From the NCBI RefSeq assembly GCF_029626025.1, contig NZ_JARUBF010000001.1, positions 6,170,001 through 6,234,000 of the forward strand: 64,000 bases of DNA. Direction: 5' to 3'. Below, piece by piece: positions 23,938-51,586 of this stretch (positions are counted from its first letter, which is position 1; each line of letters begins with the position of its first letter). The translations under genes were made by a program, and so were the position numbers. Below the pieces are notes generated by a model. It was not told where the DNA came from. It worked only from the letters and a program-made list of their open reading frames with translations, and did not search any database. Source of the stretch: Solwaraspora sp. WMMD406. Lineage in GTDB: Bacteria > Actinomycetota > Actinomycetes > Mycobacteriales > Micromonosporaceae.

Positions 23938-24023
23938 GGCTACGACGGTAGCCGTCCTGATCCACCAGCTGCCAGCACCCGCCCCGCGACGACCAGCACA
24001 CACTCGGGTCGTACCCGTTTGAC

Positions 24024-32095: not shown

Positions 32096-32271
32096 CCGCT
32101 CCACCGACACCTGACCACCCACCGAGATCCCCGACCGCTCCACCGAGTCCGTTGTCGGATTCGACAGTCGCTGTTTTCCGACAGTATCCACAACGGATCC
32201 AGACTGCCGGCCGGCCGGGAACATGACTACGGTGATAGGTAATTCCCGTGACCGGACGTGAGGAGCCCGTC

Positions 32272-32688
32272 ATGTCCAAGCCGATCAAGGTCAGACTGCC
32301 CAGTGGCGAGGTGGTGTGGACCTTGGCCGACGTTCCCGGCCGGCCGACCGACGTGGGTTTCCTCGACGACCGGATCCACGACGTGGAAGGTCTGACGGAG
32401 ACGATCCGGGGGATCGGCGCCAGCGTTCGTCAAGGGCTCGCCGACCTGGCACCGGACACGGTCACCGTCCAGTTCGGTCTGACGCTGACCGCCCGTACCG
32501 GTCGGGTGATCAGTGTGCTGGCCGAGGCTGGCGGGCAGGCCAACCTGACGGTCACCCTCGGTTGGGGTCCGGGCGGCGAGACCGGGGTCGCGGTCGAGCC
32601 GGCCGCCTCCGGCGGCCCGGGTGATGCCGAACAGCCGGGCAGCCCCGGCGGATCGGTGGAGCCGACCGTCGGTGGCGAACTCGGCTGA
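32272..32688 (+). CDS. Trypco1 (CU044_2847-type) protein of the VMAP cassette
   Basis: A 138-residue protein matching the Trypsin-co-occurring domain 1: IKVRLPSGEVVWTLADVPG, then the ETIRGIGASVRQGLADLAPD helix, then VTVQFGLTLTARTGRVISVL and LTVTLGWGPGG. Family members are found beside trypsin-like proteases in actinobacterial conflict cassettes; their biochemical role is unproven, and a part in holding or recognising the protease/effector is suggested by neighbourhood only. ATG 32272 was chosen for its GAGGAG site 6 nt upstream; an in-frame GTG lies at 32248. It is the first gene of the cassette that runs to 42810, and ends 16 bp before the protease gene. Confidence 0.85.
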   Translation: MSKPIKVRLPSGEVVWTLADVPGRPTDVGFLDDRIHDVEGLTETIRGIGASVRQGLADLAPDTVTVQFGLTLTARTGRVISVLAEAGGQANLTVTLGWGPGGETGVAVEPAASGGPGDAEQPGSPGGSVEPTVGGELG

Positions 32689-32704
32689 CCGCGACGGTCC
32701 GGCA

Positions 32705-34795
32705 GTGAACATCATGACGGTCCCGAACCACACCGAATGGCTGCGCCGAGCGGTGCGGTCCTGCGTCGTGCACATTCCCGCCGCGCCGGGTGTCCCCGGC
32801 GGCACCGGCTTCTTCGTGGCTCCCGGAGTCGTGCTGACCTGCGCCCACGTGGTGAGCTCCGGGAACGGGGCGGACCCAGGCGACCTGACGGTCCGCTGGG
32901 ACGGGCAGGACCTGCCGGTCCGGGCCGTACATCCGGAACCCGGCCGGCACGACGCGGACACCATCTGGCCGCTGCCGGATCTCGCTGTGGTCGAACTGGC
33001 CTCGGCACCGCGACACCCCTGCGGGTGGCTGGGTGACGCGCACATCGACGACGACACCCCGCTGTACGCCTACGGGTACGGTGCCGTGTACGCCGACGCC
33101 GGTGCCACCACCGCGCAGCTGCGCGCGGCCGGGCCGCAGGCGGTGCCGGGCGGAGTCGCGGTACGGGTCAGCGGCGACGAACTGCCCGCCGGGATGTCCG
33201 GCAGCCCGGTGCTCAACCTGCTCACCGGCGAGATCTGCGCGGTCGTCAAGACCGCGCGCACCCCCGACCAACCGTACGGCGGGGTGGTAGTCCCGCTGGT
33301 CCAGTTGCGCGGGTTGCCGAATGATCCGCTACTGCGGGACCTCTGGCGCGGGCACGATCGATATCACGCCGAGGAGGGCGACTGGGCCGGGCGGATCGAC
33401 CGGCTCCGGGACGATCGACATCAGCTGGGCGCCTTGCCGTGGAATCCGTGGGATGCGCTGAACCCGGACATCCCGCTGCCGGTGCTGCGGGCCGGCGAGG
33501 AGGCCAGTCTGCAGGCCGTCCTGTCGTCGATGCCGCCGACGGTCGATCCCATGACGATCTATCACGATCTCACCGACCCGTTCCGGCCGAGAGCGGCCCA
33601 GCCGTTGACCCATCCACGGGATCTGATCCGGGCGCTCGACGACGCGCGCGGCACCTGGCGCGGAGAGCTGCACCATCTCGTCCGGTTCGCGCTCCTACTC
33701 GCCGAACGGGTTCCCGAAGCCCAGGCCGGGACGCTGCGGCGGTGGGCCTGGGAGGTGGCCGGCCGGATCCAGCAACGTAAGGAGTTGCGCCGGTTCCTCG
33801 ACCAGCGACAGCGGACGTCCGCTCGGGCGGCCGGGGACCAGCGTGACCCGGCGGCCGGGGACCAGCGTGACCCGGCGGCCGGGGACCATCGTGACCCGGC
33901 GGCCGGGGACCATCGTGACGCGATCCCGAGGCAGCGCAGCGGCGATCCCGCGTCGGTCCAGGTCCGCATCACCAGCAGCGGGCACGACAGCGGGCTCTAC
34001 ACCATGAGCGTGTCGATCTACTCCGCCCGCGACGACGTCCGGGCGTTCCGGCCGACCGACCCGGAGGCGTTGGAACGCATCGACCGGCCCGCTCCGCTGC
34101 ACAAGGTCTGGCGGGAGCTGCGGGATCTGGTGCCGGCGGCCTGGCGGGAGGCGGGCGCCCACGAGTCGGTGCTGATCGAACTCGTCCTGCCCGAGGAACT
34201 GCTCGACGAGCCGGTCGACCAGTGGCCGATCTCGGTCGACCGCCCGTACGCCAAGCTCGGCCACCGGGTGCCGGTGGTGGTCCGGGTCGCGGACCACGAC
34301 GACGAGCCGGAGCGGCTCGACTCGACGCGGCGATGGTGGCGGGAGCTCCAGACCGCCGGCACCGAGTGGCGGATGCGCGACTTCGACTGCGGCGGGGCGG
34401 TCGATCCGGCGCGGTTGCACGCGGACCTGCAGCGTCCGGAACCGGTCGTGTTCGGCCTGCCGGGGCCGGCGTGGAGCGTGCCGGAGCATCGGACGATCGT
34501 CGATGTCGGCACCTATGCGGGACTACCGGTGGCGGTCTGGCGGCGGCCGCCGTGCCCTCGACATCACGACCGCCGATCCGAGGCGTGCGCGGGGCAGCCG
34601 TTCCTGGCGGGCGTCGCCGCCGAGCTGCGGGACACCACGGTCGATGATCTCCCGCAGCGGGTCCGGCAGATCCGGATCGCGGCCGACCGCGACGGCGACG
34701 CCTGCCACTGTGGACACGATGTGGTGTTGATGTGGGACAATCCATCGCGCCGTCTATCTGCTCCGTCGTTGACCTTGGACACCTGGCAGCAGTGA
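32705..34795 (+). CDS. Trypsin-like protease fused to a VMAP-C domain
   Basis: A 696-residue protein central to the cassette. Residues 1-220 are a chymotrypsin-fold protease with an intact triad: H48 (VLTCAHVV), D92 (LPDLAVVEL) and S165 (PAGMSGSPVL); no signal peptide, so it works in the cytoplasm. A helical middle region (about 225-370) is followed by a repeat linker (GDQRDPAA units) and a C-terminal domain of the VMAP-C type (vWA-MoxR-associated protein): LIELVLPEELLDEPVDQW, GHRVPVVVRVAD, RRWWRELQTAG, and a final VVLMWDNPSRRL. In published models this protein is held inactive and released by the ATPase-vWA pair. ATG 32714 is an alternative start. Confidence 0.88.
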   Translation: MNIMTVPNHTEWLRRAVRSCVVHIPAAPGVPGGTGFFVAPGVVLTCAHVVSSGNGADPGDLTVRWDGQDLPVRAVHPEPGRHDADTIWPLPDLAVVELASAPRHPCGWLGDAHIDDDTPLYAYGYGAVYADAGATTAQLRAAGPQAVPGGVAVRVSGDELPAGMSGSPVLNLLTGEICAVVKTARTPDQPYGGVVVPLVQLRGLPNDPLLRDLWRGHDRYHAEEGDWAGRIDRLRDDRHQLGALPWNPWDALNPDIPLPVLRAGEEASLQAVLSSMPPTVDPMTIYHDLTDPFRPRAAQPLTHPRDLIRALDDARGTWRGELHHLVRFALLLAERVPEAQAGTLRRWAWEVAGRIQQRKELRRFLDQRQRTSARAAGDQRDPAAGDQRDPAAGDHRDPAAGDHRDAIPRQRSGDPASVQVRITSSGHDSGLYTMSVSIYSARDDVRAFRPTDPEALERIDRPAPLHKVWRELRDLVPAAWREAGAHESVLIELVLPEELLDEPVDQWPISVDRPYAKLGHRVPVVVRVADHDDEPERLDSTRRWWRELQTAGTEWRMRDFDCGGAVDPARLHADLQRPEPVVFGLPGPAWSVPEHRTIVDVGTYAGLPVAVWRRPPCPRHHDRRSEACAGQPFLAGVAAELRDTTVDDLPQRVRQIRIAADRDGDACHCGHDVVLMWDNPSRRLSAPSLTLDTWQQ
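33826..33920. repeat. 24-bp tandem repeats in the protease-VMAP linker
   Basis: About four copies of GCGGCCGGGGACCAGCGTGA plus CCCG, the last two with a CATCG variant. They encode AAGDQRDP/AAGDHRDP between the helical region and the VMAP-C domain, so the linker length is probably variable. Confidence 0.85.
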
Positions 34796-34821
34796 ATCCG
34801 GCTCAGAAGGGAACGTGACCG

Positions 34822-35889
34822 GTGATGGACTGGTGGATCTATCAAGGAGTGCCAGAGCCCCACACCGGTATTCGGCGGTTGCCGCCACCACCACCGTGGC
34901 GGGAGTTCGACGGTGGACCACCGGTGCCGCTGCCGCCCGGCGAGGACCAGGCATCGCAGCGCCGCCTCGGCGACCTGCACCGGGCCGTCGCCTACCGGCC
35001 CGACCCGACCGACCTCGACCTGATCAACGCGGCGTTGTATCTGCGCCGGCCGCTGCTGGTCACCGGACGGCCGGGGATCGGCAAGTCCACGCTCGCCGCC
35101 TCCATCGCCCACGAACTGGCGCTCGGGCCGGTGCTGCGCTGGCCGATCAGCAGCAGATCGACCCTGGCCCAGGGGCTCTACAGCTACGACGCGGTCGGCC
35201 GGCTGCACGACGCCGGTCTCGCCCACCGGGGCCACGACGGCGGCGGGCGCCGGGGCCACGACGCCGACCAGGGCGGTGAGTACGGCGGCGAGGCCACGCC
35301 GAGCGCCGACATCGGCCGCTACCTGCGGCTCGGCCCGCTCGGGACCGCGCTGCTGCCGTACGAGCAGCCTCGGGTGCTGCTGATCGACGAAATCGACAAG
35401 GGCGACATCGACCTGCCGAACGATCTACTCAACGTCTTCGAGGAAGGCGAGTACGCCATTCCCGAGCTTCGTCGGGTGGCCGTCGACCAACCACGGATCC
35501 GGGTGCAGATCGACGGCAGCGACGAACTCGTCACCATCGAAGAAGGCCGGGTCCGCTGCCGGTCGTTCCCGATCGTGATCATGACGAGCAATGGTGAACG
35601 GGACTTCCCACCCGCGTTTCTCCGTCGCTGTCTCCAGCTCAAGTTGCGGGAACCGAGTCGGGAACACCTGGCCTCGATCGTCGCCGCGCATTTCGGTGCC
35701 GATCTGCTCCGGGAAAGCGACCAACTGGTCGACCAGTTCCTCGCCCGCCGCGATCGCGGCACCTTGGCGACCGACCAACTGCTCAACGCGATCTATCTGA
35801 CCAGCAACATCGCCGCCGAGGACGGCCGCAGCCGCGAGCAACTGGCCGAGCTGCTCTTCGTCAACCAACGCACCAATCCCGACTACTGA
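34822..35889 (+). CDS. MoxR-type AAA+ ATPase of the VMAP cassette
   Basis: A 355-residue AAA+ ATPase. Walker A is VTGRPGIGKSTLAAS (K88), Walker B is VLLIDEIDKGDIDLPNDLLN (D189-E190), sensor 1 is IVIMTSNGERDFPPAF, and the arginine finger lies in FLRRCLQLKL. A Gly/His-rich loop sits between Walker A and B (about 130-165). The segment ADIGRYLRLGPLGTALLPY and the FEEGEYAIPEL block are typical of the MoxR subfamily that works with vWA proteins. It would remodel the protease-VMAP-C partner at the expense of ATP. The start is GTG 34822 (next codon ATG); its stop shares one base with the next start. Confidence 0.93.
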   Translation: MMDWWIYQGVPEPHTGIRRLPPPPPWREFDGGPPVPLPPGEDQASQRRLGDLHRAVAYRPDPTDLDLINAALYLRRPLLVTGRPGIGKSTLAASIAHELALGPVLRWPISSRSTLAQGLYSYDAVGRLHDAGLAHRGHDGGGRRGHDADQGGEYGGEATPSADIGRYLRLGPLGTALLPYEQPRVLLIDEIDKGDIDLPNDLLNVFEEGEYAIPELRRVAVDQPRIRVQIDGSDELVTIEEGRVRCRSFPIVIMTSNGERDFPPAFLRRCLQLKLREPSREHLASIVAAHFGADLLRESDQLVDQFLARRDRGTLATDQLLNAIYLTSNIAAEDGRSREQLAELLFVNQRTNPDY

Positions 35890-38800
35890 TGACCATCTCC
35901 CGGCTGCTGCGTCTGCTGCGGGACGCCGATGTCGACCCGCAGCCGACCGCCGTCGCCGACGCGCTCTGGCTGGCGCGCTACCTGCCCGACCCGGCCGGCG
36001 GGGACGCCCCCGGACCGACCGGGCAGGACGTCGGACCCGGGCCAGGCTCACCGGACGCACCACGGCGCGGTCCGGACGCCGATCCGGTTCCGGGTACGGT
36101 CGCGGCCGCCGGCACCGTCTCCGCCGACGAGCGTGACCTCGCCGTGTACGCGGTGGAGTCGGCGGCGGATCCGGGCCGGGAGCACCTGCTCGAACTGCGG
36201 GCACCGGCCGCGTCGGCGCTCCCCGGTGCGCTGGCGATCAGTCGGGCCCTACGGCCGCTACGCCGTACGGTCGCCGACCCGCACCGCATGGAGATCGACG
36301 AGGAACGGACCATCGAGGCCATCGCCGAGACCGAGCTGTGGCTGCCGCTGTGGCGGCACGGGCAGCGTCGCTGGCTCGACCTCCGCTTGGTAACCGATCT
36401 ACACACATCGATGGCTGTCTGGCACACGCTGGTCGACGAGCTCATCACCCTGGTCCAGGGACTGGGCGTGTTCCGCGACGTCCGGACCGGTGAGTTGTCC
36501 GCCGGGACCGACGGCCGGCTCAGAGTCACCGGCGCCGCCGGGCACGACTCGGCCCGCCAGCCGCCGCCGGCCGGCGGCGGCAGCCTGGTCCTGCTGGTCA
36601 GCGACTGTGTGGCGCCTTACTGGCACGACGGTTCGGCGTACCAGCTGATGCAGCGGTGGGGTCGGCGAGCGGCGGTGGCGGTGCTGCAGCCCCTGCCACA
36701 GCGGCTCTGGCCCCGAACCGGTCTGGTGCCCGAACGGGGCAGGCTGGCCAGCCGGGGTGCGCCGACCGGGCCGGTGACGAACGCCGATCTGCGCTTCACC
36801 CCGTACCGCTGGCGGCCGGACCGGCGACTCGGCAGCGAGTTGCCGATCCCGGTGCTGGAAATCGAACCCGACTGGTTGATCGGCTGGACGCGGCTGCTGG
36901 CCGGCAGCGGCCGGACGGACGCGATGATCACGCTGCCACCCCGGCCGGGCGACGGCGACCGCCCGCCGACGGCCGCCGATCCGACCCGCACCCCGATCGA
37001 CCGGGTACGGACGTTTCAGGCCACCGCCAGTCCGCAGGCGTTCCGGCTCGCCACCTATCTGTCGGCGGCACCGACCACCCTGTCGGTGATGCGGCTGGTG
37101 CAGCAGTCGGTGATCCCGGTGTCGCGCCCCTGCCACCTGGCCGAGGTGCTGCTCGGTGGCCTACTGGCCCGTGTTCCCTCCACCGACACCGAGCTGCGGT
37201 TCCGGTTCATGCCCGGGGTACAGGCACTACTCAGCCGGTCGTTGCTGGTCAGCGACCTGCAACGCATCCGCTACCAGATCTCCGGATTCCTCGCCGACCA
37301 ACTCGGCATCAGCATGCGGGAGTTCACCGCCGCCGTGTCGGCGCCGTCCGGCACCAACGGCGCACTCGGCGTGGAGTCCGCTGGTCGGCCCTTCGCCGCC
37401 CTGCCGGCGCCCGTGGTGGCCCGGCTCGGCGACCGGTTCCGGGACCTGGTCGAGCCGATCCCGGACTCGCCCATCGACTCCGGCGACCGTTCGCCGGACA
37501 ACGCGGGCCCGCCCGCCGGCGATCAAGACACCGACACCGACACCGACGCACTGGCCGACCGACGGCGACAACTGGCGGATCTCCTCGACCGGATCCACCG
37601 GTGGGACGCCGAGGTCATGGACCGCGTCGGCGCCGCGCCGGCCGGACCGACGAACCGGCCGGCCGGTGAGCTCGGGCCGGTGCTGGACGAAGCGGTCTAT
37701 CTGCTCCGGGACCTGATCCGTCGACGGCGGCCGCCACCGGGAGCGACCCGGGAGCTGGCGGCCCTGTTGCGCATCCGCTACGAGATGGCCGGCGAACCCG
37801 CCGACCTCACCGAGGCGCTGAGCCTGATCCAGGATGCCCTGGACCGCCGGTCGCCGCCGGCCCAGGTCCCGCCGCAGACCCAGGTCCCGCCGGACGATCA
37901 GGTCCCGCCGTACGATCAGGTTTCGTCCCGGCCGGCGGCGGAGACCGACGTCGTCGCCGAGGCGGCGCTGATCAGGATGGCGCTTTTCCGCCGCGACGGT
38001 CGGGCGTCCGATCTGACCGAGGGAATCCGGCTGGCCCGAGTCGCGGTCGCCGCGACCGCCGAGGACGGCCCGATTCTGATCCGCCGCCGGATCGCCCTGG
38101 CGGAGGCACTGCTGACCCGGTTCGCGGCGCTGGCCGCGCCGGCCGACCTCGACGAGGCGTTGGCGATCTACACGGCCGAGCGGGACCGCGCGCCGGACAC
38201 CTCCCGGGTGGAGCTGCTGGCCCGGATCGCCGACCTGCACCGGGTGCGCTACCGACGGGGTAACGGCCGACGTGATCTCGACGCGGCGATCGCCGCCACG
38301 CGGGCGGTGGTCGCGGCGCGCGGCAAGGCACCCGGCTCCGCCGCCGACACGACCAGCCTCGCGGAGCTGCTGCACGAGCGGTTCGCCGTCACCGGTGACG
38401 AAGCGGACCTACGAAAGGCGGCCGACCTGTACGCCAGCGCCGCCAGCCTGGCCCCCGACGCCACCGACCGGGTCCGCGCGGTACGCGGCCGGGTCCGCGC
38501 GGTGGCGCAACTGCTGCGCCGCGACCCCGACCCGGACCGGCACGACCCCGACCCGGATCTGCTCGACGCCGACCCGGATCTGCTCGACGCCGTGATCGCG
38601 GCCGGCATGTCCGTGGTGGAGCCGGCCACAGCCGACGATCGGCAGACCGTGTCGCATCTCGACACGATGGCCGGCCTGCTGGCGCTGCGGGCAGGTCGAC
38701 GTCGAGAGCGACACCGCGACGACCGGTCCGTGGAGATCCGGCTGCTGCGTCACCTGCTCGATCTGGTGCCGGTCTACCATCCGAAACGGCCCGACTACCT

Positions 38801-39413
38801 CTACCGGCTCGGCGTCGCGCTGCAGCACCGCTACCGCGACGGCGGTGAACTGAACGACCTGTGGGAAGCCGGTGAACGGTTCCGCACCGCTGTCGAGTTC
38901 ACCCCCGCCAACCAGCAACCGACGGCCCGCTATCTGGCCGCGTACGCAGAGGCACTGGCCATGACGGGTGAACAGTCCGGCAACCGGTCCGATCTGGAGC
39001 GGGCGCGCCGGGTGATGCAGCAGGCGATCCACGCCACCCCGAGCCTGGACGCGGCGCTACCTCAGCGATCATGGCGGTTGGCCGAGATCCTGCTGGCCCT
39101 CGGCCAACCCGGTCCCGCCGCCGACCGGATGCGGCTGGTGGTCCAGGAGTTCGCCCGCAGCCGGGGTCCGGACGACGAGGAGACCCTGCGGGCGCGTACA
39201 GCGTTCGGCCGGCTGCTGGGCGACCTCGGCCGGTACGGCGAAGCCGCCGACGAACTCACCTCGGTGGTCGACGTCCTGGTGCAACGGCACGGGCCGGACC
39301 ATCCGGCGGTGCTGGCGATCCGGCGCGACGCCATCCGCGCCGGCCAGCGACGCGACGATGGTCAGGACGACGTCCAGCACGATCCACGCCAGGCGGGAGG
39401 GAACGATCCTTGA
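35889..39413 (+). CDS. SAV_2336-type vWA-like protein with TPR-like array
   Basis: An 1174-residue protein. Residues 1-80 hold the MTISRLLRLLRDADVDPQPT-type opening of SAV_2336 N-terminal proteins and a Pro/Gly-rich linker. Residues about 150-290 form a divergent von Willebrand A domain: LDLRLVTDLHTSMAVW replaces DxSxS with DLHTS, and LVLLVSDCVAPYW supplies the later Asp. Residues about 340-520 are a helical domain (SPQAFRLATYLSAAPTTL to FLADQLGIS). From about 560 to the end lie helical repeats of TPR type (for example DLTEGIRLARVAVAATAEDG, DLDEALAIYTAERDRAP, RMRLVVQEFARSRG). It is the vWA partner of the MoxR ATPase in a ternary system. A QVPP repeat lies at about 658-680. Confidence 0.85.
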   Translation: MTISRLLRLLRDADVDPQPTAVADALWLARYLPDPAGGDAPGPTGQDVGPGPGSPDAPRRGPDADPVPGTVAAAGTVSADERDLAVYAVESAADPGREHLLELRAPAASALPGALAISRALRPLRRTVADPHRMEIDEERTIEAIAETELWLPLWRHGQRRWLDLRLVTDLHTSMAVWHTLVDELITLVQGLGVFRDVRTGELSAGTDGRLRVTGAAGHDSARQPPPAGGGSLVLLVSDCVAPYWHDGSAYQLMQRWGRRAAVAVLQPLPQRLWPRTGLVPERGRLASRGAPTGPVTNADLRFTPYRWRPDRRLGSELPIPVLEIEPDWLIGWTRLLAGSGRTDAMITLPPRPGDGDRPPTAADPTRTPIDRVRTFQATASPQAFRLATYLSAAPTTLSVMRLVQQSVIPVSRPCHLAEVLLGGLLARVPSTDTELRFRFMPGVQALLSRSLLVSDLQRIRYQISGFLADQLGISMREFTAAVSAPSGTNGALGVESAGRPFAALPAPVVARLGDRFRDLVEPIPDSPIDSGDRSPDNAGPPAGDQDTDTDTDALADRRRQLADLLDRIHRWDAEVMDRVGAAPAGPTNRPAGELGPVLDEAVYLLRDLIRRRRPPPGATRELAALLRIRYEMAGEPADLTEALSLIQDALDRRSPPAQVPPQTQVPPDDQVPPYDQVSSRPAAETDVVAEAALIRMALFRRDGRASDLTEGIRLARVAVAATAEDGPILIRRRIALAEALLTRFAALAAPADLDEALAIYTAERDRAPDTSRVELLARIADLHRVRYRRGNGRRDLDAAIAATRAVVAARGKAPGSAADTTSLAELLHERFAVTGDEADLRKAADLYASAASLAPDATDRVRAVRGRVRAVAQLLRRDPDPDRHDPDPDLLDADPDLLDAVIAAGMSVVEPATADDRQTVSHLDTMAGLLALRAGRRRERHRDDRSVEIRLLRHLLDLVPVYHPKRPDYLYRLGVALQHRYRDGGELNDLWEAGERFRTAVEFTPANQQPTARYLAAYAEALAMTGEQSGNRSDLERARRVMQQAIHATPSLDAALPQRSWRLAEILLALGQPGPAADRMRLVVQEFARSRGPDDEETLRARTAFGRLLGDLGRYGEAADELTSVVDVLVQRHGPDHPAVLAIRRDAIRAGQRRDDGQDDVQHDPRQAGGNDP

Positions 39414-39703
39414 GCGACACCGGTCCGCCGTCGACCGGACGCCCTGACCCGGCGTTGCACACGATGTTCGAGGCGGGTGACGACGGACTCCGGTCAGCCG
39501 TCCGCCTGCTGCTGGCGGACGCCCGGTCGGCGCGACATCCGGCGGTACGCCATCGTGCGGCGGATCCGCAACCGTTCTCCCCGTTCGACAACAGCCTGAC
39601 GGTGCCGCCGGGGCGACCCGCCGCGTGGCACCACGGGAACGGTCCGGATGCCGACCGCGCTCCCGGAACCGACGACGCACCCGAAAGCGGATACTCGACG
39701 TAG
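39410..39703 (+). CDS. Small unknown protein coupled to the vWA gene
   Basis: A 97-residue protein that starts at TTG 39410, overlapping the stop of the vWA gene (TTGA), behind GGGAGGG. It has a short helical segment (MFEAGDDGLRSAVRLLLADA), a PQPFSPFDNSL motif, and a Pro/Gly/Asp-rich tail ending ESGYST. No database family was recognised. Size and place are those of a modified-peptide precursor, but the C-terminus is not the FxSxx of the FxSxx-COOH class and no radical-SAM maturase is adjacent. It could be an adaptor or substrate of the protease. Confidence 0.55.
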   Translation: MSDTGPPSTGRPDPALHTMFEAGDDGLRSAVRLLLADARSARHPAVRHRAADPQPFSPFDNSLTVPPGRPAAWHHGNGPDADRAPGTDDAPESGYST

Positions 39704-39819
39704 CCGCGATTGCGCGCGGCGGTGACAATTACGTAGGGCGAACCCCGATTACCACCAAAGCGACCTGATCCGTTGTCCGTCAGAAAGTCCATACCGCCCG
39801 TGGAAAGCGAGCCGCTCCG

Positions 39820-41247
39820 ATGACCGTTCCCGCCGAGGCCCGTACCGGTGCCGATTCGTCCGCGCCGGTCGTGGTGCTGCACGCCGGCACCGATCGCGCC
39901 TGGGCGGAATGGATCTCCGAACAGCTCGGCTGGGCCGGCCTGACCACCGGGTTGACGATGCTCGGCACACCGATCGCGGATACTCTGGCCGACTACCTGC
40001 CCGGCGTCGCCAAGGGCGACGCCACGCTGCTGGTCGTGCTCACCGAGGCGCTGGTCCAGCTGAGTGGCAAACCGACGGCGGATTGGTCCGAGCAGCTGCT
40101 GGCGCTGCGGGCCGCCCGCCCGGGCCGGGTGCTGACCGTTTCCGGTGGCGGGCCCGGCGTACCGCTGGTCACGCCCCGCTCGGCGCTGCTCGGCGTACCG
40201 GAGGAGGATCCGGCCCGCCGGCTGCTGCTGGCCTTGTTCGACCTGCCCGCCGACCAGATCGGTCCACCCGCCCCGATGCTGGGCGCGGCCCGCTATCCGC
40301 TGCGTCGCCCCCGCTACTGGAGCCCGCACATCCCGGCGCGCAACCCGCACTTCTCCGGGCGCGACGACATTCTCGTCGATCTACGGGAACGGCTCAGCGG
40401 CTACGTGACAGCGGTCGTGCCGAGCGCGGTGCACGGCACGGCCGGGGTGGGCAAGACCCAACTGGCCATCGAGTACGCTCACCGCTTCGCCTGCGACTAC
40501 GACCTGGTGTGGCTGGTGCGCTGCGAGCAGTTGGCCACCGCCCGCTCCGACCTCGCCGCGCTGGCCGCCTATCTCGACATCCGTACCAGTGACGATCTCG
40601 GAGTGACCGCCGACGCGGTCCTCGATGCGCTGCGACGCGGCGAACCGATCCGCGACTGGCTGCTCATCTTCGACAACGCCGGGTCGCCCCAGCAGCTGCG
40701 CCGGTTGCTGCCCAGCGGTGGCGGCCACGTGCTGGTGACCTCCCGCGACCAGCGGTGGCAGGCCAGCGTCGACGCCGTGACGCTGGAGGGATACCGGCGT
40801 CCGGAGAGCCTGCACTTCCTGCGCCGCCGGGTGCCGGGCATCTCGGCCGAGCAGGCGGTGGCTCTCGCCGACGAGCTCGGCGACTTCCCGCTCTATCTCG
40901 ACGGGGCGGCGGCGCTGCTCAGCACCACCAAGATGCAGGTGAAGGTACTGCTGGAGCAGATCCGCCGGTACCCATCGAAGGTCCTCGGTCGGGCGCCGGT
41001 GCCGTCGTACGAGCATCAGCCGGTGACGATCTGGACGATCGCCGTCAACCGACTTCGGGAGGAGCGGCCGGCCGCCGCCCAGCTGCTGCGGCTGTGCGCC
41101 TTCGTCGGACCTGAACCGATCTCGCTCCGCCTGCTCGCCGGTCAGGCCCTCGGCGGAGACCCGTCCGAGCATCTGCCGCCCCCGCTGCGCGGCGAGATCG
41201 GCGACCCGATGAACCGCAGCGAACTCCTCGCCGAGATCGGCCGGTAG
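39820..41247 (+). CDS. N-terminal fragment: TIR-like + NB-ARC domains
   Basis: The 475-residue product if translation stops at the TAG. It keeps the TIR-like module (about 1-140), a linker with HIPARNPHFSGRDD (the usual entry to NB-ARC), and the ATPase core, but lacks the end of the winged helix and all repeats, so sensing would be lost. The ATG at 39820 follows a GAAAGCGAG site. It lies 116 bp after the small gene at 39410. Confidence 0.6.
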   Translation: MTVPAEARTGADSSAPVVVLHAGTDRAWAEWISEQLGWAGLTTGLTMLGTPIADTLADYLPGVAKGDATLLVVLTEALVQLSGKPTADWSEQLLALRAARPGRVLTVSGGGPGVPLVTPRSALLGVPEEDPARRLLLALFDLPADQIGPPAPMLGAARYPLRRPRYWSPHIPARNPHFSGRDDILVDLRERLSGYVTAVVPSAVHGTAGVGKTQLAIEYAHRFACDYDLVWLVRCEQLATARSDLAALAAYLDIRTSDDLGVTADAVLDALRRGEPIRDWLLIFDNAGSPQQLRRLLPSGGGHVLVTSRDQRWQASVDAVTLEGYRRPESLHFLRRRVPGISAEQAVALADELGDFPLYLDGAAALLSTTKMQVKVLLEQIRRYPSKVLGRAPVPSYEHQPVTIWTIAVNRLREERPAAAQLLRLCAFVGPEPISLRLLAGQALGGDPSEHLPPPLRGEIGDPMNRSELLAEIGR

Positions 41248-41292
41248 GGGCTGGCGAAGCTGGGGCAGGGCGAGAGCGGCGAAACCCTGCAG

Positions 41293-42810
41293 ATGCATCG
41301 GCTGATCCAGTCGTTCCTGCGCGACCAGCTCTCCCCCGCGCAGGACGCCGAATACCGCGCCATCGTGCACCAACTGCTCGCCGCAGCCGACCCCGGCGAT
41401 CCCGACCAGCCGGGTAACCGGGCCCGCTACGCGGAGATCCTGCCGCATCTCGGGCCGGCCCAGGTGTCGACATCGACCGACCCACGAATCCGCCAACTGG
41501 TCCGACACATGGTCGGCTACCTGGACGGACGCGGCGAATACACCGCCACGGTGGAACTGGCACGGGCCGCCCTGCCCGGCTGGACCGACCATCTCGGTCC
41601 GGACGCCGACGACGTGATCGCGCTGCGGGTGATGCTGGCCAACTCGCTGCGCAGCCTCGGCCGCTACGCCGAGGCCAAAGAGCTCGACGACGGCAGCCTG
41701 GACCAGGCCCGGCGCAGTCTCGGTGCCGGCCACCCGACCACACTGGCCGTCGCCAACGGCCTCGCCGCCAGCCTGCGCCGGCTCGGCGACTGGCACGCCG
41801 GTCTGGCCCTCGACGAGGACGTGTTGGTGTTGAGTCGGCAGCTGCCCGAGGGGCACCGACGCCGGCAACTCGCCACCCACAACTACGCGGTCTCGATGCG
41901 GATGATGGGCCGGTTCACCGAGGCGTTGGCGGTCGACGAGCAGACGCAGGCCGAGCTGCGACAGCGGTCCGGCGGGGTCGACAACGCCCACCTGCTGTTC
42001 TCCGCCAACAACCTGGCGCGAGACCTGCGGGAATGCGGTCGCTACCAAGAGTCGGTCGAACTGCAGGAGGACGTCTACCGCCGCTACCGCGAACTGCTCG
42101 GCGAGGACCATCCCAGCTCGTTGCGGGCGATGAAGAACTTGGCCGTCACCCTTCGCAAAGTCGGACGGTACGCCGACGCCCGCGACCTGGCGCAGGCCAG
42201 TTACGAGCTGCACCGGCGTCGACTCGGGCCGAAGCATCAGGAGACACTGGCCGCCTCCACCAACCTGGCTAACGACCTGCGGATGACCGGCGAGCTGTTC
42301 GGCGCGCGGGCCCGGGCCCAGGACGCCTACGAGGTCCTCGACCGTACGGCGGGCGAACGGCACCCGTACACGCTGGCGGCGGCGACGAACCTGGCGATCG
42401 CGCTGCGCCGTACCGACCAGCTGGAAAAGGCCAGGGAGATCACCGAGCGCACCTATCGCCTCTTCGGCGAGGTGCTCGACCCGGCGCATCCGTACACGCT
42501 GGCGTGCGGGACCAACCTGGCCAGTGACCGGCAGGCGACCGGTGACCGGGACGGGGCCTGTGAGCTGGGCACGGAGCTGCTGGCGATGTCGCGTAGGGTT
42601 CGCGGCGACGCCCACCCGTACACCTTGGCGTGTGCGATCAACCTGGCCGCCGATCTGCGGCTGGCCGGCGATCACGCCACCGCCCGTACGTTGCAGGCCG
42701 AGACGGTGCAACGCTACGTCGAGGTGCTCGGACCGGAACATCCGGAGACGCTGGCGGTCAGCACCACCCGGGAGCGGATCGACTGCGACATCGAGCCACC
42801 GCCGACCTGA
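41293..42810 (+). CDS. C-terminal fragment: TPR array
   Basis: If the downstream half is translated alone, it could start at ATG 41293 (MHRLIQSFLRDQL) and give 505 residues: the last part of the STAND module and nine TPRs of the form ...NLA.DLR..G....A..L...., each followed by LG/DHP..L. No ribosome site is evident before this ATG (the sequence is AACCCTGCAG), so separate translation is doubtful. It ends 69 bp before the convergent ClC gene. Confidence 0.5.
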   Translation: MHRLIQSFLRDQLSPAQDAEYRAIVHQLLAAADPGDPDQPGNRARYAEILPHLGPAQVSTSTDPRIRQLVRHMVGYLDGRGEYTATVELARAALPGWTDHLGPDADDVIALRVMLANSLRSLGRYAEAKELDDGSLDQARRSLGAGHPTTLAVANGLAASLRRLGDWHAGLALDEDVLVLSRQLPEGHRRRQLATHNYAVSMRMMGRFTEALAVDEQTQAELRQRSGGVDNAHLLFSANNLARDLRECGRYQESVELQEDVYRRYRELLGEDHPSSLRAMKNLAVTLRKVGRYADARDLAQASYELHRRRLGPKHQETLAASTNLANDLRMTGELFGARARAQDAYEVLDRTAGERHPYTLAAATNLAIALRRTDQLEKAREITERTYRLFGEVLDPAHPYTLACGTNLASDRQATGDRDGACELGTELLAMSRRVRGDAHPYTLACAINLAADLRLAGDHATARTLQAETVQRYVEVLGPEHPETLAVSTTRERIDCDIEPPPT

Positions 42811-42878: not shown

Positions 42879-44441
42879 TCAGGTGGCGCGGTCGGTCTCG
42901 GGCCATTCGGCCGGGGTGCGGGCGGGCGGCACCGATCCAGCGGTACGGATCTCGTCGCTCCGCCCGGCCACGACGTGCCCGTCAACCGGCTGGCCCTCCA
43001 GCGGCCGGCCGTCGATCACCCGTATCGCCAAGGGCTTGTCCGGTGTGGACTCGGTCGATGCCGGCCCGACCGACGTCGGCTCCGGAAGGCCGGATTCGGA
43101 TCGGTCCCGCAGTTGGCTGCGGTAGAGCGTGCTGTCCCCGACGATCAGGGCGGCGAGGGCGGTGGCCGCCATCGCCGGCAGCAGTACGGCGGTGCTGCCG
43201 GTGGTTTCGGCGACCATCACCGTCAGCGCCAGCGGCGCGTGGATGATCGAGCCGAGACAGGCGGCCATCCCGACGAGTACGAACGGCACCGGTGACTCGG
43301 TCGCCAGGCCGTACGGCTCCAGCAGCCGCCACAGTGCGGCACCGGCGGTTCCGCCGATGACGAGGCCGGGACCGAAGATGCCGCCGGAACCACCGGACGC
43401 CACCGACAGGGAGGTGGTCAGGATCTTGACCAGCGGGATGGCCAGCACCAGCCACAGTGACATGCCGAGAAGTGCCCGACCGTCCAACATGTGCTGGGCG
43501 GTGCCGTAGCTGGTGCCGAGGATGTCCGGGATCGCCAGCCCGATCACGCCGACCAGCAGGCCGCCGATCGCCGGGCGCAGCAGCCGGGGTATCCGTAGCG
43601 TCCGGGTGACCAGCCGGGAGGCGAAGACGGCGGCGGTGCCGTAGAACACGACGGCGTAGAGCCGGGCGAGTAGTCCGGCGAGGACTCCGATCAGCGGCAG
43701 TGCCAGCCACAGCAGCGGATCGGCGCCGGTGACGCCGTCGACCATGCCGAACAGTGGGTCGAAGCCGTGGAACAGGCCGAACACCCCGAACGCCACCGCC
43801 GACGAGATCAACGCCGGGACGATGACGGCGGCCGCGATGTCGGCACGGTAGAGCAGTTCGGCGCCGAGCAGCGCGCCGGCGAGCGGGCTACGGAAGATCG
43901 CGCCGACGCCGGAGGCGAGTCCGACAGAGACGGTGATACGGGCCTGTTCCGGTTTCAGCCGGCTGACCCGGGCCACGATCGAGCCGAGCGCGGCGGTGAT
44001 CTGGGCGATCGGTCCTTCGCTGCCGGCGGATCCGCCGGATCCAATCAGGATGGCCGAGGCAAGCATCTTCACCGCCGGGACCCGCGCCCGCATCCCGGTG
44101 GGGTCGTGGTGTGCGGCGTGAATGGCGGCGTCGGTGCCGTGGCCACTGGTTTCCGGCGCGACCCGCAGGACCAGCACGGTCGCCACCAGGGCACCGGCGG
44201 CGACCAGCAGTGGCAGCACAAGCCAGTGTGGACTGCCGATCGCGGGTGCGCCGCCGTCGCTGGCGAGCTCGGCCGGGTGGTAGCCGGTCAGCTCGACCAG
44301 CAGATAGCGGGTGGCGACGGTCAACAACCAGAAGAACGCGGCCGCGGCCAGCCCGGACAACAGCCCGGTCACCAGCGCGACCGGAATCCACAGGCGCAGC
44401 GACCGCCCGATGCTGAGTTCCGCCACGGCTCTCCTCGCCAT
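42879..44441 (-). CDS. ClC-type chloride channel or H+/Cl- exchanger
   Basis: A 520-residue ClC-family protein with the usual membrane core (about 15-430). Selectivity motifs: GSGGSAGSEGPIAQ, combining the Ser-containing GSGxP-like region and the gating Glu in GSEGP; GGSGGIFGPGLVIGG for the GxFxP element; and a late TGSTAVLLPAMAATALA helix. The C-terminal 80 residues are hydrophilic and do not form CBS domains. The gating Glu favours exchange, though the class cannot be fixed by eye. Its relation to the neighbouring conflict cassette is only that of convergence. Confidence 0.93.
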   Translation of the reverse strand: MARRAVAELSIGRSLRLWIPVALVTGLLSGLAAAAFFWLLTVATRYLLVELTGYHPAELASDGGAPAIGSPHWLVLPLLVAAGALVATVLVLRVAPETSGHGTDAAIHAAHHDPTGMRARVPAVKMLASAILIGSGGSAGSEGPIAQITAALGSIVARVSRLKPEQARITVSVGLASGVGAIFRSPLAGALLGAELLYRADIAAAVIVPALISSAVAFGVFGLFHGFDPLFGMVDGVTGADPLLWLALPLIGVLAGLLARLYAVVFYGTAAVFASRLVTRTLRIPRLLRPAIGGLLVGVIGLAIPDILGTSYGTAQHMLDGRALLGMSLWLVLAIPLVKILTTSLSVASGGSGGIFGPGLVIGGTAGAALWRLLEPYGLATESPVPFVLVGMAACLGSIIHAPLALTVMVAETTGSTAVLLPAMAATALAALIVGDSTLYRSQLRDRSESGLPEPTSVGPASTESTPDKPLAIRVIDGRPLEGQPVDGHVVAGRSDEIRTAGSVPPARTPAEWPETDRAT

Positions 44442-47682: not shown

Positions 47683-49050
47683 CGCCGGAAGTGCCGGCCG
47701 TGCGGCCACGAACGCTTCGGCCCGGTCGACGGTGGATCGGGCGATCGAGCTGTCACGCCACCTACGGTCGTTGAGTGAGCCTCGGAGACTGTCGATCCGG
47801 CCGATCAGCCCGGCGCGACGCCACTGCGGCGGCATCGCCCACACAGGCGTGAGCGTCGGCTCCACCGCGTCGAGTTGCCCACCGAGCAGCAGACAGACCG
47901 CCAAGTCGACGCGGGCCTCCGCCACGACCGTAGGCCACTGCGCCTGGGTCGCCGCCGCCAGATCGACCGCACGTCGCGCCGCGTCGGTGGCCTGCGCGAC
48001 CTGGCCAACCTGCAGCAGCGCCGTACCATCACAACGGGCCTGCTGCTCGACGGTGAACCCGAACTCACCGCCAACGAGGTCATGCAGTTCGTCACGACCG
48101 GCCTGGCTGCGGGCGTCCGCAGCGGTGGCGATCGCCGTCATGACCGCGTCAGCATTTCCCCGGTAGGCCAAGGCACGAGCAAGGACGCTGTACGCACGGA
48201 CCCGCGCGACACCGGCCGGGGCGAGGTCGGCGGCGGCCTGTGCGTACTGAACGGCATCGTCGACTTGACCGGTCCAGTAGGCGATGGTCGCCTGCATCCC
48301 TCGGGCGTAGGCACATGCACCAGCGTGGCCAATGATCTCGCCGTAGGCGTAGGCCGCTCGGGCGTACTGCATCGCCGGTGACCACAGACCGAGATCAACA
48401 CTTTCGCTGGCCAGCAACGCCGCCGCCTGGGCGACGATCAGGTACAACTCGGTCTGCTGCGCCGGCCGGCGGGTGTGCTCCAGCAGACGCACCGCGAGAT
48501 CACGGATCCGAAGGGTCTCGCCGACGATCTGCTGCAGCTCCAACTCCGGGAAGCGCCGCGCCAGCCGGCTGGCATCGTCGCGCAACTGCTCGATAGCAAC
48601 ATCTGACACTGCCAATGCACCTGCGTTCAAAGCATGTTCACGGGTCTCGTGCGCGGCCTGCACGATCGATCGGACGGCTCCGCCCTGACCAGGCTCCGGC
48701 GGTGTCTCCGGAATCACCTCGGCCGGGAACCGGCTGGCCATCTGATCAACCTTACGCCGGCGGTGCCGCGACTCGACACGGTCAAACGCCGCCAGCAAGT
48801 CACCACCGGCGTCCAGCAGCTTGTCCGCACGCTGCCAGAAGTCGCGTGGCGCCCGCTGACGACCGGTCTCCACGTTCGCCACACTGCTGCGGTGGTAGTG
48901 GATCACCGCCGACAACTGATGCTGCGTGTAGCCGGCCGCCTGCCGCAACACCGCCAACCGATGACCCAGCGCACGTCGCACCCGCAAAAGATCATCGACC
49001 GCTGACTCTTGATCAACCCGACCCTCGGACATACCTAAATAATCTCGCAT
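47668..49050 (-). CDS. XRE-family regulator with TPR-like domain
   Basis: A 460-residue protein. The helix-turn-helix is at about 30-80: RLAVLRQAAGYTQHQLSAVI, then SSVANVETGRQRAPRDFW. The rest is helical repeats of TPR type (ELYLIVAQAAALLASESVDL, GMQATIAYWTGQVDDAVQYA, TDAARRAVDLAAATQA), as in the many Streptomyces XRE-TPR regulators that control adjacent genes. ATG 49050 was preferred because GGGCGG lies upstream; ATG 49032 is possible. It is divergent from the glycosylase-radical SAM-kinase operon and is the probable regulator of it. Confidence 0.85.
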   Translation of the reverse strand: MRDYLGMSEGRVDQESAVDDLLRVRRALGHRLAVLRQAAGYTQHQLSAVIHYHRSSVANVETGRQRAPRDFWQRADKLLDAGGDLLAAFDRVESRHRRRKVDQMASRFPAEVIPETPPEPGQGGAVRSIVQAAHETREHALNAGALAVSDVAIEQLRDDASRLARRFPELELQQIVGETLRIRDLAVRLLEHTRRPAQQTELYLIVAQAAALLASESVDLGLWSPAMQYARAAYAYGEIIGHAGACAYARGMQATIAYWTGQVDDAVQYAQAAADLAPAGVARVRAYSVLARALAYRGNADAVMTAIATAADARSQAGRDELHDLVGGEFGFTVEQQARCDGTALLQVGQVAQATDAARRAVDLAAATQAQWPTVVAEARVDLAVCLLLGGQLDAVEPTLTPVWAMPPQWRRAGLIGRIDSLRGSLNDRRWRDSSIARSTVDRAEAFVAARPALPALPGV

Positions 49051-49259
49051 CCGCCGCCCTACGTAGAGACGCCGGTTGTCAACATTTTGTCGGAGGGCTC
49101 CGAAGATCACCTACACAGACCTTGGACCTATATGGTTTCCCCAAAGCTTCGTGACCAAGCCAGGCGCCCACACAGGTTCGCCCTGATCGAGTCATCCCGG
49201 ATTCGAGAATTTGCGATACCAGGGAGAACGCTTGGGCGCGATCCCGGCCAAGATATTCC

Positions 49260-49281
49260 AGGAGGTAGGAATATGAGATAA
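49260..49281 (+). promoter_or_regulatory. Minimal upstream ORF (ATG-AGA-TAA) with strong ribosome site
   Basis: AGGAGGT (about 49260-49266) is followed at a normal distance by ATG AGA TAA (49273-49281), a two-codon ORF. The real start of the glycosylase gene is 45 bp further on at 49327. A perfect ribosome site on a start-stop unit suggests leader control of the operon, though chance is possible. Confidence 0.4.
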
Positions 49282-49326
49282 TTTAGCACCCTGAGCCTTG
49301 ATCAACCGTTCGGAGACTTCACCGCC

Positions 49327-50133
49327 ATGCGCAACACGTTTGACTTTGTGATGACCGAGCACGCCGCCTGGCAACCGGCGAACGGCACCGTACAGCGAGT
49401 CCTCGTCCTTGACAACGGCGGCCGATGGTTGGCCTCACTCCAGAACGGCAAGCTGACTCTCGACCGTTTGACCGGCACTGGGGCTGGGCCGATTCACGAT
49501 GTCTTCACACTGCCGAACACGTTCGACGACGCTCCCGAGCTGGCAGACTCGCTACGCTCTCTGGGCTCGGTCATACGGCTTCGGAACCCGAGCCTATGGG
49601 ACGCGATCAGCACTGCGGTCATCCGGCAAGTCATCCGCGCCGGACAGTCGAAGAAGCTGTATCGGGCCTTCTGCGATGCGCATGGCGAGAAGATCCCCCT
49701 ACCGGACGGCAACTTGTACGCCCTATTCCCGGCACCAGAGATCGTGCTTGAGTTGAGCGATCACCAGTTCGGTTCCCTCGGGATGGCTTTCAAGCGTCGC
49801 CCCTTGCGGGCTGCCGCCGAGGCCTACCTGGAGCGTGGCTTCAAATGGCGTGAGCTTGTGCCCGATGTGCTCGTCGCCGAACTCCAGACCGTGCCGCGCA
49901 TCGGCCCATGGACCGCGCAGGCCGCCGTGGCTGACTGGTGCAACGACTGGTCGTTCTATCCCTACGCCGATCTGGCAGTGCGCACCTGGGCCAAGCGAGC
50001 TGCACCCTCACACGACTGGCCGGCCGACGAATCGGCTTTCGGTCGCACCTGGCGCGCGCTCGCTGGCGAACATCTCTGCTCGCTCACGCTGCTGACGCTC
50101 GCTTGGGGTTCCCGACATGGAGATATCGGCTGA
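49327..50133 (+). CDS. OGG-fold/HhH-GPD DNA glycosylase-like protein
   Basis: A 268-residue protein of the helix-hairpin-helix-GPD superfamily, the base-excision glycosylases. The C-terminal half has the hairpin LQTVPRIGPWTAQAAVADW and the downstream acidic position in YPYADLAVRTWA (candidate catalytic Asp). The N-terminal half (about 1-110) is a beta-rich region as in AlkA/OGG. A catalytic Lys of the bifunctional OGG1 type is not obvious in the hairpin (WTAQ), so it may be monofunctional. It overlaps the radical-SAM gene by 17 bp. The target base is unknown. Confidence 0.8.
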   Translation: MRNTFDFVMTEHAAWQPANGTVQRVLVLDNGGRWLASLQNGKLTLDRLTGTGAGPIHDVFTLPNTFDDAPELADSLRSLGSVIRLRNPSLWDAISTAVIRQVIRAGQSKKLYRAFCDAHGEKIPLPDGNLYALFPAPEIVLELSDHQFGSLGMAFKRRPLRAAAEAYLERGFKWRELVPDVLVAELQTVPRIGPWTAQAAVADWCNDWSFYPYADLAVRTWAKRAAPSHDWPADESAFGRTWRALAGEHLCSLTLLTLAWGSRHGDIG

Positions 50134-51586
50134 CCGTGCCGTGGCAGGCGCGGACATCACTCGCCCTCTTGACGCCCTGTTCATCAACGCGCCGCTACGC
50201 GACTACAGTCTCCGTCCCCGCGTGAACGACTTCACGCTGCCCGTGCTCGGCATGGGCTACATCGCCACCTACGCCAAACATCAGGGTTTCAACGTCGGCA
50301 TCATCGACGCCGAAGCCCTCGGGCTCGGCCTCAGCCAGACCGCGCAACTCGTCAACCGCCTGTCGCCACGCTGGGCAGGCTTCAACCTGCTCGCCCCGAC
50401 CTACGAGATCAGCGCCCGGATGGCGTCGCAGCTCGACCCGTCGATCAGCCTCATGCTCGGCGGCCATCAGGCCAAAGCCATGCCGACTGAGGCGCTAACC
50501 GACCCACGGTTCGCCCGCTGCGAGGCGTTGGTGCTGGGCGAAGGCGAAACACGAGTGGCCCAACTGCTTCAGGACCACCGCTTCCGCACCGAACTTCCGG
50601 GCGTGATGTGGCTCGACCCCATCCTGCGCACCCCGGTCACCGGCGGCAGCGTCGGTGCCGGGTACCACCTCGCGCCCGACATCAACCGTCTGCCGTTCGT
50701 GGATCGCGCGTTTCTGGCTGACGACCCGTACATCGCCGCTGACGGACGGCTGGAGGCGAACATGGTCGGGGCTCGGGGCCGCCCCTACGACTGCTCGTTC
50801 TGCGGAGCAGCCGTGTCAGCCAACCCTGACATCACCATCCGCACCCGCACGCCGGAGAACATCATCGAGGAAATGATGGACCTGCAGACAAGCTACGGGG
50901 TGACGGCCTTTCGTTTCGTCGACGATTTGTTCCTGGGGTACGAGCGCTTCATCCAACCCTGCATGGCCGCGTTCGCGGCAGCCGGCATCGGCGACCGCTT
51001 CGTCTGGGATGCGACCGGCCGCATCAACATCCTGCACCGCATGAGCGACGACATGCTGCAGACGTTGAAGCTCAACGGCTGCCGGGAGGTCGCACTCGGC
51101 ATCGAGTCCGGCAGCGAGCGACTGCTGAAACACATGGGCAAGCGCATCACCTCGGACATGACGCGCACTGTTGTCCGGCGCCTGACCGAACGCGGCATCT
51201 CGGTCAAGGGCTACTTCATCCTCGGGTTCCCGACGGAGACCCGGCAGGAGTTAGCGGAGACCGTGCGGCTCATCCACGACCTGTGGAAGACAACCGCCGA
51301 CCAGCCCGGACGCTTCCGGGCCAGCGTCTTCGAGTTCCGGCCCTACCCAGGCACACCTGAGTGGAAGCGACTCATCACGACAGGGAAGTACAGCCCGCAG
51401 CAGCTCCTGGACTACACCGCCGTGGACCTCACCGCCGGTGGCGTCGATGAGGCGATGCGCGGACGAGACGAGTTCAACTTCTCGGTCAACATCCAGTTCG
51501 GCGAGGCTCCCGTGCACGAGGTGCGAGCCCGACTGACGGAACTGTCCCGCGAACAGTTCCAGCGTTCGTTGGCGGTCTCCGCATGA
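50117..51586 (+). CDS. B12-binding-type radical SAM protein with altered cluster motif
   Basis: A 489-residue protein. Residues 15-150 form a cobalamin-binding Rossmann-like domain (LFINAPL...GYIATYAKHQGFNVGIIDA, LMLGGHQA, VLGEGETRV). The radical-SAM barrel follows: the expected CxxxCxxC reads R222-P-Y-D-C226-S-F-C229, so the first cluster ligand is Arg (CGC rather than TGC). The rest is conserved: FRFVDDLFL, EVALGIESGSERLLKHMGKR, and KGYFILGFPTET. The C-terminal region (about 400-489) is helical. It overlaps the kinase start (ATGA). Enzymes of this type methylate or rearrange unactivated carbons. Confidence 0.88.
   Translation: MEISADRAVAGADITRPLDALFINAPLRDYSLRPRVNDFTLPVLGMGYIATYAKHQGFNVGIIDAEALGLGLSQTAQLVNRLSPRWAGFNLLAPTYEISARMASQLDPSISLMLGGHQAKAMPTEALTDPRFARCEALVLGEGETRVAQLLQDHRFRTELPGVMWLDPILRTPVTGGSVGAGYHLAPDINRLPFVDRAFLADDPYIAADGRLEANMVGARGRPYDCSFCGAAVSANPDITIRTRTPENIIEEMMDLQTSYGVTAFRFVDDLFLGYERFIQPCMAAFAAAGIGDRFVWDATGRINILHRMSDDMLQTLKLNGCREVALGIESGSERLLKHMGKRITSDMTRTVVRRLTERGISVKGYFILGFPTETRQELAETVRLIHDLWKTTADQPGRFRASVFEFRPYPGTPEWKRLITTGKYSPQQLLDYTAVDLTAGGVDEAMRGRDEFNFSVNIQFGEAPVHEVRARLTELSREQFQRSLAVSA

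Follow-up and report, generated by a model that had tools for sequence, protein, structure and literature searches.

A VMAP ternary system with an interrupted FxsT gene and an adjoining CLC gene on a genomic island of Solwaraspora sp. WMMD406

Results

Gene content of the cassette

Six genes lie on the plus strand of the window (the whole 64,000-nucleotide stretch of the Solwaraspora sp. WMMD406 genome analysed here) in the order Trypco1, trypsin–VMAP-C, MoxR, vWA/TPR (SAV_2336), a 97-codon ORF and TIR-like/NB-ARC/TPR. A preliminary description of this DNA had placed the six genes at the same positions, all on one strand and separated by short gaps or overlaps, and had called the cassette complete. 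It is not, because an in-frame TAG at 41245–41247 (+), overlooked in that description, interrupts the last gene, fxsT.

The Trypco1 gene (32272–32688, +) matches PF19493 with 55.5 bits (cut-off 24.6) and NF041216 with 56 bits. About 90 bp upstream of its start lies an imperfect palindrome, TGTCGGA-N17-TCCGACA (32153–32183), a possible operator. The second gene (32714–34795, +; alternative start GTG at 32705) was assigned by profiles as VMAP, with an HtrA-like trypsin-fold protease (PF13365, 51.5 bits, cut-off 27.6), a VMAP-M0-like middle part (24.8 bits, slightly below the cut-off of 25.9) and a VMAP-C domain. The VMAP-C assignment, initially made from the sequence alone, passes profile comparison (PF20028, 129.2 bits, cut-off 27), and the profile search found this to be the sole such match in the genome. 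The catalytic triad proposed earlier as H48/D92/S165, counted from the GTG at 32705, is the same as H45/D89/S162 counted from the ATG at 32714, and is invariant in all 21 aligned VMAPs. An AlphaFold2 model of VMAP was obtained with pLDDT 79.8 and pTM 0.55. The best 50 of its 1049 PDB matches are S1-type and HtrA-type proteases, with no fold relative of VMAP-C among these 50.

The third gene (34825–35889, +) encodes a MoxR-type AAA+ ATPase (AAA_5, 33.9 bits, cut-off 22) with MoxR-clade motifs and both VMAP-specific N-terminal motifs, WWIYQG standing for WxhapG and PPWREF for PsWRxa. The fourth (35889–39413, +) encodes a vWA-like SAV_2336 protein (NF041121, 401 bits, cut-off 200). The helical repeats already noticed in it proved to be C-terminal TPR-like repeats, with weak TPR_12 matches and, at 39078–39356, a match to the TPR section of the FxsT profile (E 4.5e-10). 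Two aspartates of the vWA domain, on strands 1 and 4, are nearly invariant (D170) and invariant (D239) among 17 aligned SAV proteins. For the vWA part of this protein, an AlphaFold2 model (mean pLDDT 73.4, pTM 0.66) matches a single PDB entry at E<=0.001, one chain from the NorQD complex; because the TM-scores of this match are low (0.16/0.30), the vWA fold itself is weakly supported.

According to the relevant sections of Kaur et al. 2020 (PMC7159879), VMAP ternary systems are marked by the gene order VMAP–MoxR–vWA, the WxhapG and PsWRxa motifs of MoxR, the two vWA aspartates and Trypco1 together with a trypsin. The locus carries all the defining features that were testable here: VMAP, MoxR and vWA follow each other on one strand (32714–39413) in the published order, the MoxR motifs, the vWA aspartates and VMAP-C are present, and a trypsin-type peptidase has a Trypco neighbour, with both PF13365 and PF19493 above cut-off. 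The reading frames of VMAP, MoxR and vWA are unbroken and their motifs preserved. A comparison of the core genes with PADLOC-DB gave only weak protease and AAA matches.

FxsT and its in-frame stop

The last gene, spanning 39820–42810, encodes FxsT, the "FxSxx-COOH system tetratricopeptide repeat protein" (NF040586, cut-off 300). Its first part (39820–41247, +; 344 bits) contains the TIR-like region and the NB-ARC P-loop, intact as GTAGVGKTQ, and ends at the TAG. In the second part (41248–42810, +; 517 bits) the same frame remains open and unharmed, matches the rest of NF040586 and encodes the remaining ATPase module and the TPRs, with nine TPR_12 stretches. Both halves thus exceed the family cut-off, and the gene earlier read as TIR-like/NB-ARC/TPR is an FxsT, although its frame is interrupted and the TIR call is weak (TIR_2, 18.9 bits against a cut-off of 28). 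TIR_2 was scanned in three relatives, of which two pass (36.2 and 65.3 bits) and one, from locus L099, has no TIR match. In all nine related loci that combine VMAP with FxsT, fxsT is uninterrupted and 997–1111 codons long. Since the stop cuts FxsT inside the ATPase module, the FxsT of WMMD406 is truncated and its function is probably lost in the present copy. An FxsT-like sequence elsewhere in the genome (C1:931489), considered as a second broken copy with stops, was not treated as such: its open frame is 879 aa.

The 97-codon ORF and the FxSxx components

Between the vWA gene and fxsT lies the 97-codon ORF (39410–39703, +), at the place where relatives encode an FxSxx-type peptide. The frame is open, as the preliminary description had it, but it looks less gene-like than its neighbours, with a codon GC of 0.74/0.62/0.79 compared with 0.71–0.79/0.47–0.56/0.82–0.88, and it matched no family. 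Neither TIGR04268 (the FxSxx-COOH precursor) nor, across the loci compared, tblastn (E<=1e-4 or 1e-5) gave a match. In our own profile of 17 related peptides the ORF scored 3.7 bits, 10th best of the 707 window ORFs searched, and in a profile of 8 seeds it scored 4.7 bits and ranked 7th. Its position and an internal FDNSL had suggested an FxSxx peptide (FxsA); the profiles give this assignment no support. Three of the six peptides or tails scanned from related loci pass the TIGR04268 cut-off of 28 (L226, L228 and L229), L224 and L225 give weak matches and the L099 tail has no match; the L087 peptide, outside these six, scores 19.7 bits.

An FxSxx subtype of VMAP systems is described in the sections of PMC7159879 devoted to it as combining a TPR-only vWA protein and a separate TIR–AP-ATPase–TPR gene with an FxSxx peptide and two enzymes, one zincin-like and the other of the radical SAM–SPASM kind. 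We equate the HExxH enzyme of the loci studied here with that zincin-like protein; FxsB is the radical SAM–SPASM enzyme. The TPR-only vWA protein and the separate TIR–AP-ATPase–TPR gene are found in the window (with TIR_2 below its cut-off). FxsT is not intact, and neither the peptide-processing genes nor a recognisable FxSxx-COOH precursor was found. In the WMMD406 genome, 7.16 Mb in 3 contigs, nothing matches the HExxH enzyme (TIGR04267) and no radical SAM protein exceeds the FxsB cut-off, the best reaching 92.9 of 370 bits. By tblastn, neither FxsB nor the HExxH enzyme was found at 24001–60000 of the window, and candidate remnants of the two in the gap between the vWA gene and fxsT matched at chance level only.

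The CLC gene beside the cassette

Beyond the stretch covered by the preliminary description, a gene for a CLC chloride channel/transporter (42879–44441, −; PF00654, 265.5 bits) faces fxsT convergently with 68 bp between the two ends; we propose it as a member of the system. It lies on the same island as the cassette, on the opposite strand and outside the operon, so that it is not co-transcribed with the cassette genes. In two related loci from distant actinobacteria, L087 and L099, the CLC and vWA (SAV) genes share a strand and overlap by 4 nt.

In a tree of 21 CLCs, drawn from 35 aligned rows after a duplicate of L087 and near-copies were left out, the CLCs of the window, L087 and L099 form one clade (support 95/92); the tree of all 35 rows, with the L087 duplicate, gives the same grouping (94/92). 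Within the 21-row tree the pairing of the window with L087 has support of 83/59 only, and the L099 branch is very long (3.07); without L099 the window and L087 group at 100/99, and without L087 the window and L099 group at 98/94. The comparators had been picked as matches to the window CLC, and by plain identity this protein is closer to a non-VMAP CLC from genome G285 (54%) than to the CLC of L087 (51%). The filter motif is GSEGP or GTEGP (G[S/T]EGP) in all three VMAP-locus CLCs and in none of the 31 others, which have GREGP (27) or GAEGP (4).

CLC genes are rare in the family of the host, with 8 of 200 genomes matching at E<=1e-20 and none of the six other members of the genus. The CLC as an old neighbour of xseB was considered and set aside: these six relatives carry no CLC at that threshold, and tblastn finds none at their xseB site. 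In the family of the genome that carries L087 (G395), a close CLC occurs in 2 of 35 genomes, and that of G395 sits in the VMAP locus itself. CLC genes occur in 2 of the 56 loci compared (L087 and L099), a set in which one locus appears twice (L042 is L119) and several end at contig ends. Together, the clade and the G[S/T]EGP motif of these three examples lead us to propose that the CLCs of VMAP–FxsT systems form a group of their own. The CLC seems to be part of the VMAP machine and, if confirmed, would be a new part of it.

A genomic island after xseB

Compared with six other genomes of the genus, the window contains an insertion of about 20.9 kb (32097–52985), which carries other genes besides the cassette and the CLC gene. 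Homology to the relatives ends after xseB, at about 32096, and returns within an AtzH-like gene, at about 52986. In two relatives (L116 and L117) the AtzH-like and biuret-hydrolase-like genes stand almost immediately behind xseB, and in three (L113, L114 and L118) about 2–2.6 kb lie in between; in L115 these genes were not matched. None of the six genomes has a VMAP match. We read the cassette as acquired with the island. Direct repeats were sought at the island ends: a 13-bp word is shared at 32202 and 53050, neither copy lies at a junction, and we take it as chance. Other short open frames occupy the xseB site in L113, L114, L115 and L118, which makes this site a possible insertion hotspot.

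Towards its distal end the island is lower in GC (0.64–0.65). At 50117–52209 (+) a B12-binding radical SAM gene overlaps a dTMP-kinase-like gene (TIGR00041, 106.3 bits, cut-off 83.25), and their PADLOC candidates, PDC-M51A (weak, E 8.2e-4) and PDC-M51B (E 1.8e-11), suggest a possible second defence pair. Around this pair, at 48615–50133 (+) and 52201–52743 (−), lie a 179-aa frame of no known kind, a protein with a weak DNA-glycosylase match (E 2.2e-6) and one of CYTH/class IV adenylate-cyclase-like type, which passes the CYTH cut-off (59 bits) and stays slightly below that of cyaB (55.6 against 57.95). Elsewhere in the window, a 1152-aa frame at 17893–21351 (−) contains ten choice-of-anchor Z repeating-domain stretches in a strongly skewed region.

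Related loci

A family-level search matched 19 of 200 genomes, and 14 regions from 12 of these were compared; a class-wide search for FxsT matched 76 of 394 genomes, and 33 rows were compared, 20 of them high-scoring (not strictly the top 20) and 13 mostly chosen by frame length. Searches of 200–400 genomes scored 3–7 candidates per genome, and several loci of the FxsT set end at contig ends. VMAP, MoxR and SAV occur together in all 14 family-level loci and Trypco1 in eight of them, and none of the 14 shows FxsT or CLC. The 33 FxsT loci include nine with VMAP and a separate FxsT (L087, L099, L224–L229 and L231; the VMAP of L099 was identified by profile), seven of which also have Trypco1. Thus the expectation that the six families would be found together in other genomes holds for five of them, which co-occur in 7 of the 33 loci; no relative of the 97-codon ORF was found.

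When the window is counted with these nine, FxsB is present in five of ten VMAP–FxsT loci (L226–L229 and L231), CLC in three (the window, L087 and L099), and neither in L224 and L225. That CLC and FxsB exclude each other was considered and dropped, as the absence of overlap has a chance probability of about 0.08 and is not significant. An HExxH enzyme accompanies eight of the ten, its presence in L099 resting on the L087 query; L227 and the window are the two in which it was not seen. No CLC showed up in the remaining 24 FxsT loci, those lacking a VMAP system. SAV, an FxsT-like sequence and the HExxH enzyme are likewise grouped in another five loci, taken from named genomes (L135, L140, L141, L145 and L146). 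The CLC of L099 ends in a C-terminal tail (L099:6357–6506, −) with an LPDL-type stretch that resembles an FxSxx leader by eye. It was not accepted as an FxsA-like leader: the tail had been used as a seed of our own profile, which makes that match circular, and NCBIfam gives none.

In a plasmid collection, FxsT was found in 21 records, MoxR in 39 and CLC in one, which is outside the 21. According to PLSDB, 19 of the 39 records with MoxR relatives are predicted to be mobilizable or conjugative.

Discussion

Interpretation of the locus

Our interpretation starts from what the sequence shows: which genes are present and in what order, that catalytic and nucleotide-binding residues are conserved, that the cassette lies on an island, that a stop interrupts fxsT, and that this CLC is linked by evolution to the CLCs of two other VMAP–FxsT loci. 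The reading that we prefer, at roughly even chances, is that the island brought in a VMAP ternary system of the type with a separate FxsT, and that this variant lacks FxsB and the HExxH enzyme and has a dedicated CLC anion channel.

Another account of the same genes, to which we give a distinctly lower probability, is that an FxSxx-type VMAP system is decaying here: it has lost FxsB, the HExxH enzyme and the true peptide, its FxsT has acquired a stop, and the neighbouring CLC gene is an unrelated passenger of the island. It would explain a genome with no FxsB above the cut-off and no HExxH match, the in-frame stop, the CLC gene on the opposite strand and the weakly coding look of the 97-codon ORF. 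However, the frames and motifs of VMAP, MoxR and vWA are unharmed, the gap between the vWA gene and fxsT holds no remnants of FxsB or the HExxH enzyme, and the window CLC groups with the CLCs of VMAP loci. Nor is the absence of FxsB a sign of decay by itself, because L087, L099, L224 and L225 have an intact FxsT without FxsB. A further alternative concerns the stop only and is compatible with the preferred reading: the TAG may be a sequencing error or may be read through, leaving FxsT whole and working. We regard this as unlikely. The stop is single, the frame is otherwise unharmed and the second half of FxsT still scores 517 bits; yet TAG terminates other local frames, the 97-codon ORF among them, and fxsT has no stop in any of the nine relatives. 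Errors in long-read sequencing are more commonly indels, which also counts against an erroneous TAG.

Instead of defence, the cassette might serve as a switch in the development or stress response of a multicellular actinomycete; we consider this the least probable of these alternatives. The passages of PMC7159879 on their distribution describe VMAP systems as widespread in multicellular actinobacteria and link them to the multicellular habit, and no functional test of VMAP systems was among the titles and opening lines of abstracts listed by our literature searches. Against a developmental role, the cassette is absent from the six other genomes of the genus and from their xseB site, and the island also carries the second candidate defence pair. 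The preliminary description had supposed that the MoxR ATPase and the vWA protein might restrain the protease and that the STAND protein might recognise phage or cell damage. On which component senses, the literature offers two models, each taken here from part of its source: in one, VMAP senses and its peptidase frees effectors linked to the vWA protein (PMC7159879); in the other, sensing falls to the vWA protein, with the VMAP peptidase as effector (PMC10907252). In the part of PMC10910872 that deals with these genes, vWA–MoxR–VMAP genes are reported near type III CRISPR loci.

Within the preferred reading, we tentatively suggest a VMAP–MoxR–vWA/FxsT lineage without the FxSxx peptide-crosslinking enzyme, in which a CLC with G[S/T]EGP would be the executioner of a protease-gated, apoptosome-like switch leading to chloride-driven depolarisation; we infer defence as its purpose, the CLC as its output and every causal step. 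At rest, VMAP (the HtrA-like protease with VMAP-C), the MoxR ATPase and the vWA/TPR protein would keep each other inactive. When an invader or damage to the cell provides a cue, MoxR would remodel the complex and free the protease. The CLC would then open as a result of cleavage or release combined with the assembly of FxsT into an AP-ATPase platform, and the loss of the anion gradient and membrane potential would arrest or kill the infected compartment. The output of the switch would thus include FxsT assembly and, in the variant of the window, the CLC; the FxsT step has probably been lost in WMMD406.

If the CLC travels with the switch, it would give VMAP systems a concrete, measurable output (membrane potential and anion flux), and which component senses and which executes would become directly testable. 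The truncated FxsT of WMMD406 provides a natural contrast to its intact relatives.

Comparison with known systems

Among proteins of known structure, the window CLC is closest to those of the E. coli ClcA type, with 1kpl_A as the best PDB sequence match (E 6.6e-24) and the family shared over most of its length. All three VMAP-locus CLCs retain the Glu of GxEGP and have G[S/T]EGP in place of GREGP. At the TLY motif, the CLCs of the window and L087 retain Tyr and that of L099 has Phe. The second Glu of IEEM in ClcA, the internal proton glutamate, is Leu in the window CLC. Leu or Ile stands there in all 34 CLC rows, so this residue is not special to VMAP-locus CLCs and channel-like behaviour of the window CLC is a guess. 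The words "chloride" and "CLC" do not occur in the main text of PMC7159879, and no link between CLC and VMAP systems appeared among the titles and opening lines of abstracts returned by our literature searches.

One close counterpart of the window, L087, comes from the same class and another family (genome G395) and has the order Trypco1–VMAP–MoxR–SAV–CLC–peptide–HExxH–FxsT, FxsB being absent as in the window. Unlike in the window, the CLC gene lies inside the operon, the HExxH enzyme is present, a weak FxSxx-like peptide is encoded and FxsT is uninterrupted. The VMAP-C part of L087 has no Pfam match at E<=0.001, and its VMAP aligns with the others over its length. L099, from the same order and another family (genome G305), has the order VMAP–MoxR–SAV–CLC–HExxH–FxsT and likewise lacks FxsB; it differs from the window in that no Trypco1 was seen, the CLC gene is in the operon and its product strongly diverged, and FxsT is uninterrupted.

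The preliminary description had supposed that the association with a TIR-like STAND protein might make this cassette a variant form. The association is not new, because the FxSxx subtype, in the portions of PMC7159879 that set out its layout, already has a separate gene of this kind; the cassette departs from that layout instead in the absent FxsB and HExxH enzyme, the lack of a recognisable FxSxx peptide, the broken FxsT and the adjoining, linked CLC. In its remaining parts the cassette resembles the published subtype: it has Trypco1 with a trypsin, VMAP-C, a MoxR with both motifs, a TPR-containing vWA protein and, downstream, a separate TIR–AP-ATPase–TPR gene.
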